A DNA stretch of 64,000 nucleotides, from assembly GCA_960531495.1 (NCBI GenBank), contig OY482847.1, positions 14,009,568 through 14,073,567 on the forward strand, given 5' to 3'. The first letter of the stretch is position 1. Each line of letters opens with the position of its first letter. Below the pieces are notes generated by a model, which worked only from the letters and a program-made list of their open reading frames with translations, ran no database searches and was not told the DNA's origin. The stretch comes from Zeus faber. Its lineage: Eukaryota > Chordata > Actinopteri > Zeiformes > Zeidae. A program made the translations under genes and the position numbers. Shown here piece after piece: positions 30,417 through 46,325 of this stretch.

Positions 30417-33400
30417 TCACTCTGTGGTGCTATAGCTTGATCTCACCAAACTCTGAAACCCTTGATAGTCCTTGTCGATTTGGAGAACGCACGGCTTTGC
30501 GTCACAAATTGAGTCTCGATTCTGAGAGGGAATGCCTGACTCATTATTCAAGCGCTCAGCCCTCGCCTCTGCTTTTAGAGAAACACTGGAGGACACAGAA
30601 CAGTTTATTCCACTTGAGAAGGACGAGCAGCTGGAATCACGTGTGGATGAAAGGTTCTCAGAATCCATGTTGTACGGTTGGTATGAAAGGTCAGTTTGCA
30701 TTGAATTGGATGAATAAACGGCCAGCGAAGTCAGCTCTGGTTGTCCAGTAGCCTGAGGAGTTGGGGCTTGAAAACCACTCCCCTCGCTGGGATGGTAGCC
30801 AGGCTCACAGCACATTGCAGGCTGTGCCTGAACCTCAGAGCTAGCTTTTAAATCTGGCTCTCCAAAGAGAGGGGTGGAATAAGTCCTATTGTCATATGTA
30901 TGTGACCCGTGAAAACCGCCAAAGTCATCCCCTCCTAAATTACACAAACTGTGGTCAATGGACGGCAAACTGGAGTCCATGTTGGAATTAGGGAGTCGGG
31001 GGAGGGCGTCACGGAGGGCTTCCTTGACTTTGTCGATGACGTCAACAGAGGGCTTGATGTTGTAGTCCAGAGACAAGGAGTCGCTGGTTGTTCTTCTACT
31101 TTGCTCATAACTTCCACAACTGGTGTCTGTCGATGAAAATTGGGACCTAGGAGATGAGGAAGACAAGTTGAAGCAAGAATTCAAAACAGAACAGACTTTC
31201 CTTTCTCATGTTACTGCATCAACACTGACCAGGGATTTTTATTCAACGGATGGTCTTGAATGGGACAGACATTGATAGAGGACAAGGTGTCTCGCTCAAG
31301 CCTTAAGACCTGAAACAAAAAGTTACATCTTTCAATCCAAGAAAATATATACAGACATGAACAAATTTGTTGGTACCCTTACAGCTTATTAAAACAATGC
31401 TTCATTCCTCCTGAAAAAGCGATAAAATTAAAAGCAATTTTCTCATGTATACCTGCATGCCTTTGGTATGTCATATAGTCAAGAGTCAGTAAAGCAAAGA
31501 AACTGTGAAAAGACATGAATGATTGCTAAAGAGATCAATTATATTCTAAAACCGCCTGGACAAATTTGTTGGCACCCTGAACCTAATATTTTGTTGCACA
31601 ACCTTTAGGAGGCAGTCACTGCAATCAAGTGATTTCTGTAGCTCTCGATGAGACTTCTGCACCTGTCAACAGGTAGTTTGGCCCACGCTTCCTGAGCAAA
31701 CTGCTCCAGCTGTCTCAGGTTTGAGGGGTGCCTTCTCCAGACTGCATGTTTCAGCTCTTTTCATCAATGTTCAATAGGATTTAGAAGGCCACTTCAGAAT
31801 AGTGCAATATTTTGTTCTTATCCATTCTTGGGTGCTTTTAGTTGTGGGTTTTGGGTCAATAGCCTGTTTGAGGACCCATGACCTGGGACTGAGACAGAGC
31901 TTTCTGACACTGGGCAGTACGTTTCGCTCCGGAATGCCTTAATAGTCTTGGGATTTCATTGTGCTCTGCACAGATTCAAGGCACCCCGTGCCAGACGCAG
32001 CAAAGCAGCCCCAAAACATAACCGAGCCTCCTCCATGTTTCACAGTAGGTCTGGTGTTCTTTTCTTTGAAAGCTTCATTTTTTCGTCTCTTAACATGGAG
32101 CTGATGTGACTTGCCAAACAGCTCTAGTTTTGACTCATCCGTCCAAAGGACATTCTCCCAGAAGCATTGTGGCTTGTCAATATGCATTTTAGTAAATTTC
32201 AGTCTGGCTTTTTAATGTTTTTCTATCAAAAGTGGAGTCCTCCTGGGTCTTCTTCCATGGAGCCCAGTGTCACTCAAAAAGCGACGGAAGGTGCGATCAG
32301 ACACTGAAGTACCTTGACCTTGGAGTTCAGCTTGTACTTCTTTGGAAGTTGTCCTTGGCTCTTTTTCTACCATTTGCCAACAAATCTGTCCAGGCCATTT
32401 TAGAATATAATTGATCTCTTTAGCAATAATTTATCTCTTTTCACAGTTTCTGTGCTTTACTCTATGACATACCATAGACATGCAGGTATACACGAGAAAA
32501 TTGCTTTTAATTTCATCACTTTTCAGGAGGAATGAAGCATATTTTCAATGAGCTGTGAGGGCACCAACAAATTTGTCCATGTCTATATTTAAAATCCCAT
32601 GTCACTGCTGCCAAATTATTTTAGGCCTTGACTCATAACCTACTAACCCCTTAAAGGAAACAAGGACCCAAAACAGAACAGTGATTTTAGCCGGCAGCAG
32701 TGATGTTCCATCATAAAACGCACTATTATTCATGATCTTCCATAGAAAGCAAACTCTCACTGGGAAATTCACCTTTTGTTCTCTGGGAACCAAATATAAA
32801 TTAGATGGTTTTGTATATGTGCAAACTTTGTCCCACCACTTTGCTTTAAACCTGCAGACAGTTGAAAAATAAAGAGCAGAAAAGTTGCATAAATTAAAAT
32901 AGAAATAATTTAAAACTTCAAAGAAACATATAAGAAATAAAAACACTAAAACGTTGGTCTGAGTGACTTACCTTACGCAACAGATGAAAAAAACGCTGGT
33001 TATGACGACCGCTGCGAGACCCAGGCCAATGGACACACCGAGCAGGATGCTGCTGAGGGAGGCAGCTGTGGAGGACAAAGAACTCTTAGCACAGTCGTTC
33101 TTCCTCTTTTAAAAAATAGTTTATGGCAGCTCGAAGTAAATGAGCAGCATACACAGAGAACGATCTGAGGAAGAGCAAGACCGAGGAGCACAGAAACAGA
33201 TGTGTTGATAACTTGTAGGTTCTGAAACAATGGTGAAACGGTTGAAACGATGAAAAAAACGCACTTACGGGTGGTAAATTCATAATCCGTACTGTTGTCG
33301 CTGTAAAAGCCACTGAGGGATATGTAGCTTCTGACATTGACAATGTACGTAGTTGAGGGATCTAGGTATTTCCCCAGAATTTCATATGACGTTGATCGAA

Positions 33401-44600: not shown

Positions 44601-46325
44601 GGTAATATTTGGTGCTTTCGGCTTTACTGAGAAAGAACAGAGAGGGTTATTTGGCATCAAAATCTTTCCCAAATCCGAATTCTGTTGTTCCATTTCTATA
44701 TTTGACATGTGAATATAAAAATGTTCATTCGTCATCCGAAATGTATCCAAAGGGGCAAAATGTTTTATAATCTTCATTTCTGATACATTATCTGTGATGG
44801 ATTTTCAGAAGTGCAATGTCCATACATTTTTTGGGAGCACAAAATGTTTACCAAGTATTCCATATCAAAAAAATGTGTTAATTAACTTACTGCTTTTAGT
44901 GACATCAATGACCATAGATCTCAGCTGCTTCCCACCGCTCAGGAGTTTTATATTGAGCTTATCTCCAAGTATGAGCATCAGTTTGATGGAGCAACTACAT
45001 TTTCCAGGTAAATCCTTGTCAAGTCTGAACCTGCAGTATTTTACACTGTGAAAGAAAAAATTACCAGCACTGTTCAGCAACAGTGTTTGAATACAGTTTT
45101 ATTTGAATCCCTTCTGTTGTCAATTCAAAGTTTCCATTCTAATATTTTAAATGTAGATATGTAATCATCATAACCTCATAATACTAATAATAGTTCACAA
45201 TATTGTTTTAAATAAACAAATAAATAAATCACTTTGGATAAACTAGGGGTCTCAAACTACAGGCCCGGGGGTCACCTCGGGCCCGCGAGACAATTCAATG
45301 TGGCCCGCTACATGGTGATAATAATGATAAACCTGGCCCGCAAATCATTTTTTCAAATCACAATGTTTGATTAATCCACCCAAATATACTGTTTTCCAAC
45401 TATAAAACAGAATTAAACACATCATAAGAGAGCTATTTCTAAGCGGGATTACGGGGCAATTCACTAATGTGGGGGAATAAAACAAAACAAAACAGAACAA
45501 AGCTGAGGTCACTGTTGCATATTTTCTGCTGGTCGTTGCTGTGGAGGACGCCTCTTGTTGATTGCGCAAACTGTGGTTGTTGCTGTCACAACACCCATAT
45601 GGGGTAATAAAATAAAAAAATATTTAAAAAATAGATTTCTAATAGATGTCTAAATCGAATTAAGTAATTTGTATTACTGCAGTTTATGAAATAAACTATG
45701 GTTACATTTTCTAAAAATGTGTTTATGATCTCATTTGTGCGTGCACGTATGAGTGTTATTTGCATCAGCTGATCTTAAAGGTTCTTTTGGGCCTACCTAC
45801 ACAGTCATATTCTTTTACAAAGGCAACAAACCGGTGACCGTTTCTGACAGCGTCCTCCAGGTCATCGGGGCCAACTTTGTTTACCTTTTAAAGCCGCTTT
45901 AAGAAACCCTACAACAGAAAACGTGGACTCACCCGTTATGGTCTATCTCCAAAACGTATTCAGCACAGTCGGACTGGTCGGGTGTCGGTGTCAAACTGCA
46001 GAACATCACGTCGTCGTAGTCGTTGGTACAGCGGATATTTAGTCCTGTGGAAAAGCGGGCGGGGGGCGGGGGGTCAAAACGTAAGGTAAACAACGACATA
46101 AACACGTTGGAATCGCGTAAAAGTCCGCTGCTCCCGGTAAGCATACACACCGTCACCAGCCGTCACAGAAACGACGCTTTTCACGAGAAGCAGGACTAAG
46201 CTCGTCGCTGCTCCGCGCACGGACCTGAAAGTGAAGACAAAATGATCATATATCGGTATAATGACGGATCGTTAATAGAAGGTAGACGTGGGTGAAGACG
46301 TGTGCACGTACCTTCCACGGTCCAT
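41639..46325 (-). CDS. il4r: Interleukin-4 receptor alpha-like, copy B
   Basis: Intact tandem paralogue of copy A. Exons (minus): 46325-46312, 46224-46151, 46044-45933, 45045-44891, 44626-44475, 43452-43308, 43057-42964, 42843-42765, 42537-42458 and 42374-41639; 1641 nt, 546 aa. Exons 1-9 equal copy A in length. The signal peptide exons are nearly identical. D1/D2 differ at many residues, and N-glycosylation sites have moved (N125, N130 here; N114, N209 in copy A). The tail keeps DYQGFQSLV (Y536) but has C330 where copy A has Y330. It carries ten extra residues (SEAPPAPAGR) before VLQIDKDY, lacks three of copy A's serine-rich residues, and ends LVRPG. Box-1-like [16 protein letters not shown] is conserved. 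It lies head-to-head with nsmce1, which suits an IL4R identity. Confidence 0.88.
45240..45370. mobile_element. hAT-like terminal fragment, il4r copy B intron 3
   Basis: GGGGTCTCAAACTACAGGCCCGGGGGTC and the following GGCCCGC motifs are typical of hAT-type MITE ends. It is absent from the matching place in unit A. Confidence 0.55.

Follow-up and report, generated by a model that had tools for sequence, protein, structure and literature searches.

Tandem il4r-like genes of Zeus faber diverge as a regional mosaic, with near-neutral change in the ectodomain

It is tempting to read positive selection into raw replacement-to-silent counts when tandem paralogues are compared. Such counts were made for two neighbouring il4r-like genes (copies A and B) in a 64,000-nucleotide stretch of Zeus faber DNA, hereafter the window, and a preliminary description read them as diversifying selection on ligand binding. 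Has selection driven the two ectodomains apart, or do they differ as their surrounding noncoding DNA does?

Results

Splice-site models place two intact ten-exon genes in tandem (Table 1), with reading frames and modelled splice sites intact in both. The duplication units end within the window, and self-BLAST finds the DNA beyond their ends unlike; positions 29354–29929 of unit A have no good counterpart in B by self-BLAST or global alignment. The plus-strand stretch 48569–48820, which gave no Pfam match, is presumably the first exon of nsmce1. IL4R and NSMCE1 adjoin in mammals. Indels were left out of all change counts. The Tc1/mariner-like copy related to the intron 8 insertion carries a DDE_3 match at 7850–8320, and we take the A-only stretch 33831–35446 to resemble a hAT-type transposase remnant.

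Table 1. Positions of genes, duplication units, indels and divergence tracts in the window
Feature	Position	Strand	Basis
Copy A, il4r-like, 10 exons, 544 aa	30417..38190	-	predicted splice-site model, single open frame
Copy A exons 1-5	38177-38190, 38016-38089, 37805-37916, 37034-37188, 36624-36775	-	splice-site model
Copy A exons 6-10	33269-33413, 32972-33065, 32773-32851, 31230-31309, 30417-31146	-	splice-site model
Copy B, il4r-like, 10 exons, 546 aa	41639..46325	-	predicted splice-site model, single open frame
Copy B exons 1-5	46312-46325, 46151-46224, 45933-46044, 44891-45045, 44475-44626	-	splice-site model
Copy B exons 6-10	43308-43452, 42964-43057, 42765-42843, 42458-42537, 41639-42374	-	splice-site model
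Duplication unit A, full extent of matching sequence	28939..38820		self-BLAST and global alignment
Duplication unit B, full extent of matching sequence	39033..46958		self-BLAST
nsmce1 RING-like exon, neighbour upstream of copy B	56199-56369	+	PDB NSMCE1 match E 1.5e-12; PF08746 E 1.4e-11
Exons taken to be nip7, more distant neighbour	14426..16037	-	PF03657 E 5.6e-12; PF17833 E 0.0074, below its cut-off
48-bp stretch in B, missing from A, at exon 3/intron 3 donor	45887..45934	-	alignment; placement is the aligner's, arbitrary to a base or two
A-only insertion, 1236 bp, intron 8	31348..32583		89% like Tc1/mariner-like copy at 7558-8371
A-only stretches, intron 5; largest 33831-35446 and 35714-36255	33831..36255		alignment gaps
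Low tract: promoter, exons 1-2, flanking noncoding (11/821 noncoding columns)	37800..38820 (A)		HMM and identity runs
High noncoding tract: introns 3, 4 around exon 4 (53/532 columns)	36981..37799 (A)		HMM
Low noncoding tract around exon 5 (10/531 columns)	36298..36980 (A)		HMM
High noncoding tract: introns 5, 6, 7 around exons 6, 7 (63/833)	32900..35697 (A)		HMM
Low noncoding tract around exon 8 (2/222 columns)	32599..32899 (A)		HMM
Low noncoding tract flanking exon 10: most of intron 9, near 3' DNA (5/387)	30099..31215 (A)		HMM and run test

Each gene encodes a two-domain ectodomain and one transmembrane exon, with six ectodomain cysteines kept in both copies and about 90% residue identity between them. 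Protein searches for outgroups (7993 and 7994 candidates scored) returned P0001 as the sole homologue and no close fish relative. This IL4R-type protein with PF09238 was matched at E 1.9e-24 (50% query coverage; at 30% identity, a very distant relative), and its own best PDB match is human IL4Ra (E 2.3e-12). The twins share with P0001 a box-1-like motif, KAKWWDK, and both copies carry in the tail a DYQGFQSL motif that we take to resemble the mammalian GYKxF (STAT6-type tyrosine) motifs. Their WSXWS motif is degenerate (YSDNS where P0001 has FSEWS). Pfam at E up to 1 matched PF09238 (IL4Ra N-terminal) in neither copy, with fn3 below its cut-off in both and a chance PMT match in A. A single-sequence PDB search with the copy A ectodomain placed IL-7Ra (E 1.2e-9) far ahead of IL-4Ra (E 0.54), and a profile of A, B and P0001 gave 4e-16 and 1.3e-10, respectively; we set aside an IL-7Ra identity for an il4r-like one on the grounds of NSMCE1 nearby, box 1 and the PF09238-bearing homologue.

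Recounting by Nei–Gojobori over the 188 codons of exons 3–6 gave 34.5 replacement to 9.5 silent differences (exon 3, 7:1; exon 4, 9.5:0.5; exon 5, 6:3; exon 6, 12:5), nearly matching the earlier hand counts of about 36 to 8 over 564 nt (about 8/0, 10/0, 6/3 and 12/5). Exon 10 yielded 11:9 over 234 aligned codons, where about 9:6 had been counted, and the changed residues, put earlier at about 16% of the ectodomain and 4% of the tail, came to 31/188 (16.5%) and 11/234 (4.7%). The interval first given for this contrast, 33269–46044, begins with A exon 6 and ends with B exon 3; exons 3–6 of both copies and B exons 7–10 fall inside it, A exons 7–10 (30417–33065) outside. Between the copies the N-glycosylation sequons are fully exchanged (N114 and N209 in A; N125 and N130 in B), 12 tyrosines follow residue 222 in A and 9 in B, and B has 10 extra residues before DYQGFQSL and a stop five codons earlier.

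Noncoding DNA diverges much as the exons beside it. Introns 3–6 differ at 121 of 1887 columns (6.4%) and exons 3–6 at 43 of 564 (7.6%; p 0.34), with p 0.10–0.63 over six alignment and mask settings, the lowest when 10 bp beside every gap were masked. Introns 7–9 plus near 3' DNA (22/768, 2.9%) likewise match exons 8–10 (25/880, 2.8%; p 1.0), and the promoter with introns 1–2 differs at only 11 of 816 columns (1.3%). Ectodomain introns contrast with the 5' noncoding DNA (p 7e-10). Against tail noncoding DNA the contrast has p 1.4e-4 with a 3' cut at 30078, which was chosen after the divergence profile had been seen, and 1e-5 to 0.055 over other cuts, where tail noncoding divergence is 2.2–4.2%. 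Positions 29354–30077 of A were left out of the rates and of the HMM below; restoring the alignable part (29930–30077) as a check adds 145 columns that differ by 11%, bringing tail noncoding divergence to 38/913 (4.2%; p 0.018 versus ectodomain introns). Introns 7–9 alone give 17/430 (4.0%; p 0.055 versus ectodomain introns), and without intron 7 the tail contrast has p 1e-5 to 0.0075.

A two-state HMM on 3834 noncoding columns separated rates of 1.5% and 8.8% (log-likelihood gain 30.8), with tracts as listed in Table 1. The dispersion index of noncoding bins is 2.9, a value reached in 0 of 2000 permutations, and the longest identical run among all aligned columns from 30078 is 217 bp (30191–30407; permutation p 0.009). 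Another identical run, 37846–38052, covers parts of exons 2 and 3 and all of intron 2 between them. This mosaic ignores domain borders: residues 29–53 are unchanged (0/25, against 31/164 for residues 54–217; p 0.017) and the transmembrane exon has changed as often as the ectodomain (6/31 against 31/164 residues; p 1.0). At 17/145, exon 6 exceeds its flanking DNA (13/240, p 0.031), and exon 5, though set in a low noncoding tract, has 9/152 differences against 6/240 in its flanks (p 0.106); silent rates are high in these exons as well (dS 0.185 in exon 6, 0.085 in exon 5).

Another reading is that the assembly itself accounts for part of the second copy, with two haplotypes placed side by side. 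Regions differing by 1.3% could be allelic, but the 5–9% divergence of introns 3–7, the stretches present only in A (1236 and 1616 bp), and unit ends that lie inside the window beside unlike DNA make this very improbable.

Tests for selection were pairwise, on two paralogues without close outgroups, and have little power. Exons 3–6 hold 439.5 non-synonymous to 124.5 synonymous sites (3.5:1), and the observed replacement-to-silent ratio of 3.6:1 compares with 2.5–3.0:1 in neutral simulation (P 0.165–0.300); the replacement excess, unlike the counts and the lower tail divergence, does not stand beyond chance. Ectodomain omega was 1.03 by counting, 1.38 by codon likelihood without introns (p 0.40) and 1.32 by likelihood with introns as a neutral anchor (CI 0.94–1.64, p 0.17). 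With introns included, equal omega for ectodomain and tail was not rejected (p 0.14), whereas equal neutral distance was (p 1.2e-4, 3' cut 30078). The ectodomain shows neither net purifying constraint nor proven positive selection: with omega indistinguishable from 1 (1.03–1.38 in these low-power data) and introns diverging about as much as exons, the reading as diversifying selection on ligand binding fails here. The companion statement that the signalling tail is conserved or homogenised agrees with the near-equal divergence of exons 8–10 and their noncoding DNA and with exon 10, where dN/dS is 0.35 by counting (Fisher p 0.026) and 0.50 by likelihood (p 0.14).

A nominal signal is limited to domain 1 (exons 3–4). 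From codons without introns, its 16.5 replacement to 1.5 silent differences yield an omega of 6.25 (p 0.023), and neutral simulation gives a P of 0.026–0.048, although this subset was chosen after the counts were seen and its p values are uncorrected. The codon-only signal arises because silent changes are scarce; with introns as the reference, the estimate drops to 1.42 (p 0.22) or 1.20 (p 0.55). In putative IL-4-binding loop windows, which we chose after seeing the changes, 11 of 41 residues are changed against 20 of 147 elsewhere (p 0.057), and removing window 60–67 leaves 6/33 against 20/147 (p 0.58). Five of the eight residues in that window are changed, and the 48-bp splice-donor indel adjoins the changed codons 62–67; the changes and the indel may be one event. 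Human IL4R contacts, listed as Y13, D66, D67, S70, D72, D125 and Y183 in the available text of PMC1479839, were carried over by hand through alignments in which D66 and D125 fall in gaps; of the five mapped positions (Y39, M90, L93, D95 and L202 in A) one is changed, L202 to F in B. Charge-changing replacements number 16 of 31, against 34% expected (p 0.057), and at the changed positions P0001 agrees with A in 8 cases, with B in 1 and with neither in 22 (8 versus 1, p 0.039).

The domain 1 codon counts, the loop contrast, these last two observations, the exchanged sequons and precedents in chicken IL4Ra (PMC3224688) and mouse/rat IL4Ra (PMC3017759), as far as the available text of each goes, would suit diversifying or ligand-partitioning selection on the ectodomain, perhaps on domain 1 and mainly in copy B, with conversion acting elsewhere. 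Set against the whole-ectodomain tests, the intron-anchored omegas, the single changed contact, the loop contrast that fades without window 60–67 and the post hoc choice of exons, this reading is unlikely, though compatible with the account preferred below; a weak signal confined to exons 3–4 may be present. The bias of P0001 towards A could also mark relaxed constraint on copy B, drifting with its frame kept, features lost and its ectodomain neutral. Omega near 1 fits, as do B's fewer tail tyrosines, earlier stop and extra residues, but intact frames and splice sites, the retained cysteines, an exon 10 replacement rate below the silent rate by counting and the great distance of P0001 speak against it. 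We regard this, too, as compatible with the preferred account, and as doubtful, if less so than selection on the ectodomain.

Discussion

The divergence of the twins is probably best explained by tandem duplication followed by patchy homogenisation through gene conversion, the ectodomain changing near neutrally. A duplication would have produced two functional-looking il4r-like genes, which interlocus conversion would since have homogenised from the promoter to mid exon 3, around exon 5, in the exon 8 region, and over the tail exon and near 3' DNA. Between these patches, divergence of about 5–9% in introns 3–7 and 6–12% in exons 3–7 would have been left. The bulk of the ectodomain, together with the transmembrane exon, appears to lie in or beside unconverted patches, and would for that reason hold most amino-acid differences; ectodomain replacements would have built up at about the neutral rate, with mild purifying constraint possibly added in the tail. 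We infer conversion as the cause, together with the age order and the direction, from the sequences of two paralogues without a third; crossing-over or a patchy mutation rate could also make such a mosaic.

Near-neutral change with patchy homogenisation suffices here once site counts and introns serve as controls. A more speculative picture, which we think improbable and a shade more so than selection on the ectodomain in general, is that conversion keeps promoter and tail alike while domain 1, mainly in B, is driven apart (window 60–67, the sequon exchange and FG-loop changes being the features in point) and could split the IL-4/13 ligands. If true, the twins would be a receptor pair with the same switch and different sensors. 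Two complete receptor genes with near-identical promoter and tail and 16% different ectodomains offer a natural test of IL-4/13 ligand division in fish.

Paired IL-4Ra genes are described in salmonids and sea bass in the available portions of PMC4905449 and PMC5440397. The twins resemble IL-4Ra (IL-4Ra1 and IL-4Ra2 in teleosts) in their two-domain ectodomain, one transmembrane exon, the box-1-like motif shared with P0001 and the nsmce1 neighbour, and depart from IL-4Ra in the degenerate WSXWS, the lack of a PF09238 match and IL-7Ra as top PDB match. The text available puts residue identity between sea bass IL-4Ra1 and a2 at about 65% (PMC5440397), whereas these local tandem twins share about 90%. 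As in tandem paralogues under interlocus gene conversion, tracts of high and low identity alternate across exon/intron borders. In the accessible parts of the bird and rodent studies, adaptive evolution of IL4Ra comes with a high replacement fraction as here, and mouse/rat IL4Ra has high R/S in the extracellular but not the cytoplasmic part (PMC3017759), as in the twins. In birds, unlike here, 17 of the 29 listed sites fall in exon 9, positions 418–679 (PMC3224688), taken to be the tail. Those studies, so far as their available text shows, compare orthologues between species, whereas here two paralogues are compared and their introns largely account for the contrast.

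A tandem pair of il4r-like genes

Comparing the window with itself reveals a tandem duplication carrying two gene copies, A and B. Each has 10 exons, standard splice sites and a single open frame, predicting from sequence a protein with a signal-like start, two-domain ectodomain (exons 3-6), transmembrane exon and long tail (exons 8-10). Relative to B, A carries additional stretches of 1236 bp (intron 8) and 1616 bp plus 542 bp (intron 5). The tail of B ends five codons earlier, lacks tyrosines 268, 330 and 540 of A and has 10 additional residues ahead of a DYQGFQSL motif common to both copies.

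Both genes appear best named il4r-like, although neither has its own match to PF09238 (IL4Ra N-terminal) in a Pfam search or a WSXWS motif in the alignment with P0001, a very distant homologue (30% identity). The name is used because P0001, the sole homologue found in a large protein set, bears the IL4Ra N-terminal family, shares KAKWWDK with the twins and has IL4Ra as its closest solved structure, and because nsmce1, which adjoins IL4R in mammals, is the neighbour upstream of B. A single-sequence search of solved structures with the A ectodomain places IL-7 receptor alpha nearest (E 1.2e-9) and gives IL-4 receptor alpha only E 0.54.

Features of the window
Feature	Position	Remark
Unit A	28939-38820	
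Unit B	39033-46958	
Copy A	30417-38190	minus strand; 544 aa
Copy B	41639-46325	minus strand; 546 aa
Tail, A	30417-32851	
Tail, B	41639-42843	
Identity run	37846-38052	spans intron 2, ends inside exon 3 at first replacement
48-bp stretch, exon 3 splice donor	45887-45934 (B)	missing from A (37805)
Tract beyond near 3' DNA	29930-30077	16/145 columns differ
Minisatellite	2118-3497	26-bp unit, 53.1 copies
Presumed telomere repeat-binding factor gene	3538-9355	resemblance of open frames; nip7 in same window
Open frame	3538-3864	no match in Pfam search
Tc1/mariner-like pieces	7558-8371, 31557-32374, 53190-55369	one within A intron 8; those at 53-55 kb taken as such from resemblance of open frames
DDE_3 (Pfam)	7850-8320	within 7558-8371 piece
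Reverse transcriptase domain, RVT_1	61475-61843	E 8.7e-14
LINE-like element	about 60-62.7 kb	probably includes RVT_1 (open frames)

A mosaic of divergence

Two noncoding rates, 1.5% and 8.8%, alternate in tracts (HMM, 3834 noncoding columns), and the mosaic itself is firm. Across six alignment and masking settings, ectodomain and tail noncoding DNA differ (p 1.4e-4 to 3.4e-3), with p 0.10 to 0.63 for ectodomain exons against introns. The first contrast varies with the 3' cut at 30078, chosen after the divergence profile was known; the low-divergence tract ends abruptly just beyond conserved 3' DNA. Against ectodomain introns, tail noncoding DNA gives 38/913 (p 0.018) with 29930-30077 added and 17/430 (p 0.055) for introns 7-9 only; introns 8-9 plus 3' DNA give 14/648 (p 1e-5), or 30/793 (p 0.0075) with the wider cut. 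'Ectodomain versus tail' therefore describes the mosaic loosely, and tract borders matter. In each of these alternative sets, exons 8-10 and tail noncoding DNA show no significant difference (p 0.16 to 1).

Columns differing between A and B
Part	Differing/columns
5' flank	11/630
Introns 1-2	0/186
Exon 1	0/14
Exon 2	1/74
Exon 3	7/112
Intron 3	43/484
Exon 4	10/155
Intron 4	15/258
Exon 5	9/152
Intron 5	48/942
Exon 6	17/145
Intron 6	15/203
Exon 7	7/94
Intron 7	8/120
Exon 8	4/79
Intron 8	7/227
Exon 9	1/80
Intron 9	2/83
Exon 10	20/721
Near 3' DNA	5/338
Far 3' flank	26/363

Were ligand binding the sole driver, differences should start and stop with the ectodomain. They do neither: residues 29-53, including the tyrosine mapping to IL-4 contact Tyr13, are unchanged (0/25 vs 31/164 in residues 54-217, p 0.017), and 6/31 residues of the transmembrane exon are changed (p 1.0 vs ectodomain). 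Codons 62, 64, 65, 66 and 67 are changed at the end of exon 3, whose length is equal and whose donor sequences differ between copies; the 48-bp stretch lies at this donor, and a single rearrangement may have caused the cluster.

Possible selection and probable near-neutral change

The preliminary description's per-exon replacement:silent counts agree with ours (exon 3, 7:1; exon 4, 9.5:0.5; exon 5, 6:3; exon 6, 12:5; exon 10, 11:9; residues changed, 31/188 in exons 3-6 and 11/234 in exon 10), but they came without an expected ratio. With 439.5 non-synonymous sites in exons 3-6 against 124.5 synonymous ones, dN is 0.083, dS 0.080 and their ratio 1.03. Simulated neutral change of equal size (3000 runs for each kappa) yields 2.5-3.0 replacements per silent change and equals or exceeds the observed replacement share in 30.0% of runs at kappa 1.5 and in 16.5% at kappa 3.3; the diversifying selection on the ectodomain proposed from the counts is thus not borne out. 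Nor is dN/dS significantly above 1 by pairwise likelihood in exons 3-6, with omega 1.38 (CI 0.78-2.71, p 0.40) from codons alone and 1.32 (0.94-1.64, p 0.17) with noncoding DNA as a shared neutral clock. Codons alone give 0.79 for exons 5-6, 0.57 for exons 8-10 (p 0.20) and 0.50 for exon 10 (p 0.14); the noncoding clock gives 1.26 (p 0.39) for exons 5-6 and 0.79 (p 0.45) for exons 8-10. Neutral divergence itself is 0.067 in the ectodomain vs 0.033 in the tail (p 1.2e-4), and a contrast in omega (1.33 vs 0.78) is not demonstrable by joint likelihood (p 0.14). We consider it probable that tandem duplication was followed by patchy gene conversion between the copies, with unconverted parts changing near-neutrally and the tail mildly constrained.

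Selection in domain 1 (exons 3-4) may have acted in addition to duplication and conversion. Codons alone show a nominal replacement excess there (omega 6.25, p 0.023; CI starting at 1.28 and open at the upper end of the grid, 20), and excluding codons 62-67 from the neutral simulation leaves P 0.024-0.040 (whole ectodomain, 0.22-0.36); the noncoding clock gives 1.42 (p 0.22), or 1.20 (p 0.55) with introns 3-4 only as clock. Besides this codon-only excess, other results run counter to the near-neutral reading: exon 6 divergence exceeds that of its flanks (p 0.031), and the copies share 0 ectodomain N-glycosylation sequons (A 114, 209; B 125, 130). Chosen loop windows are changed at 11/41 residues vs 20/147 elsewhere (p 0.057), but at 6/33 vs 20/147 (p 0.58) without the indel window.

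At 22 of the 31 changed positions P0001 agrees with neither copy; it matches A at 8 others and B at 1, a hint of greater change in B. Relaxed constraint on B is compatible with duplication, conversion and near-neutral change, and the probabilities of the two readings overlap. Changes are not significantly rarer where P0001 agrees with either copy (9/69 vs 22/119, p 0.42), which fits weak constraint.

Relation to known receptors

A literature search, mostly at index level, recognised no published account of this tandem il4r-like pair. Excerpts of published work report two IL-4Ra genes for teleosts (PMC7274943, PMC4905449, PMC5440397), and adaptive change in IL4Ra of birds (PMC3224688) and in its extracellular part in rodents (PMC3017759). 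The tandem twins with their mosaic are therefore a new case of known kinds.
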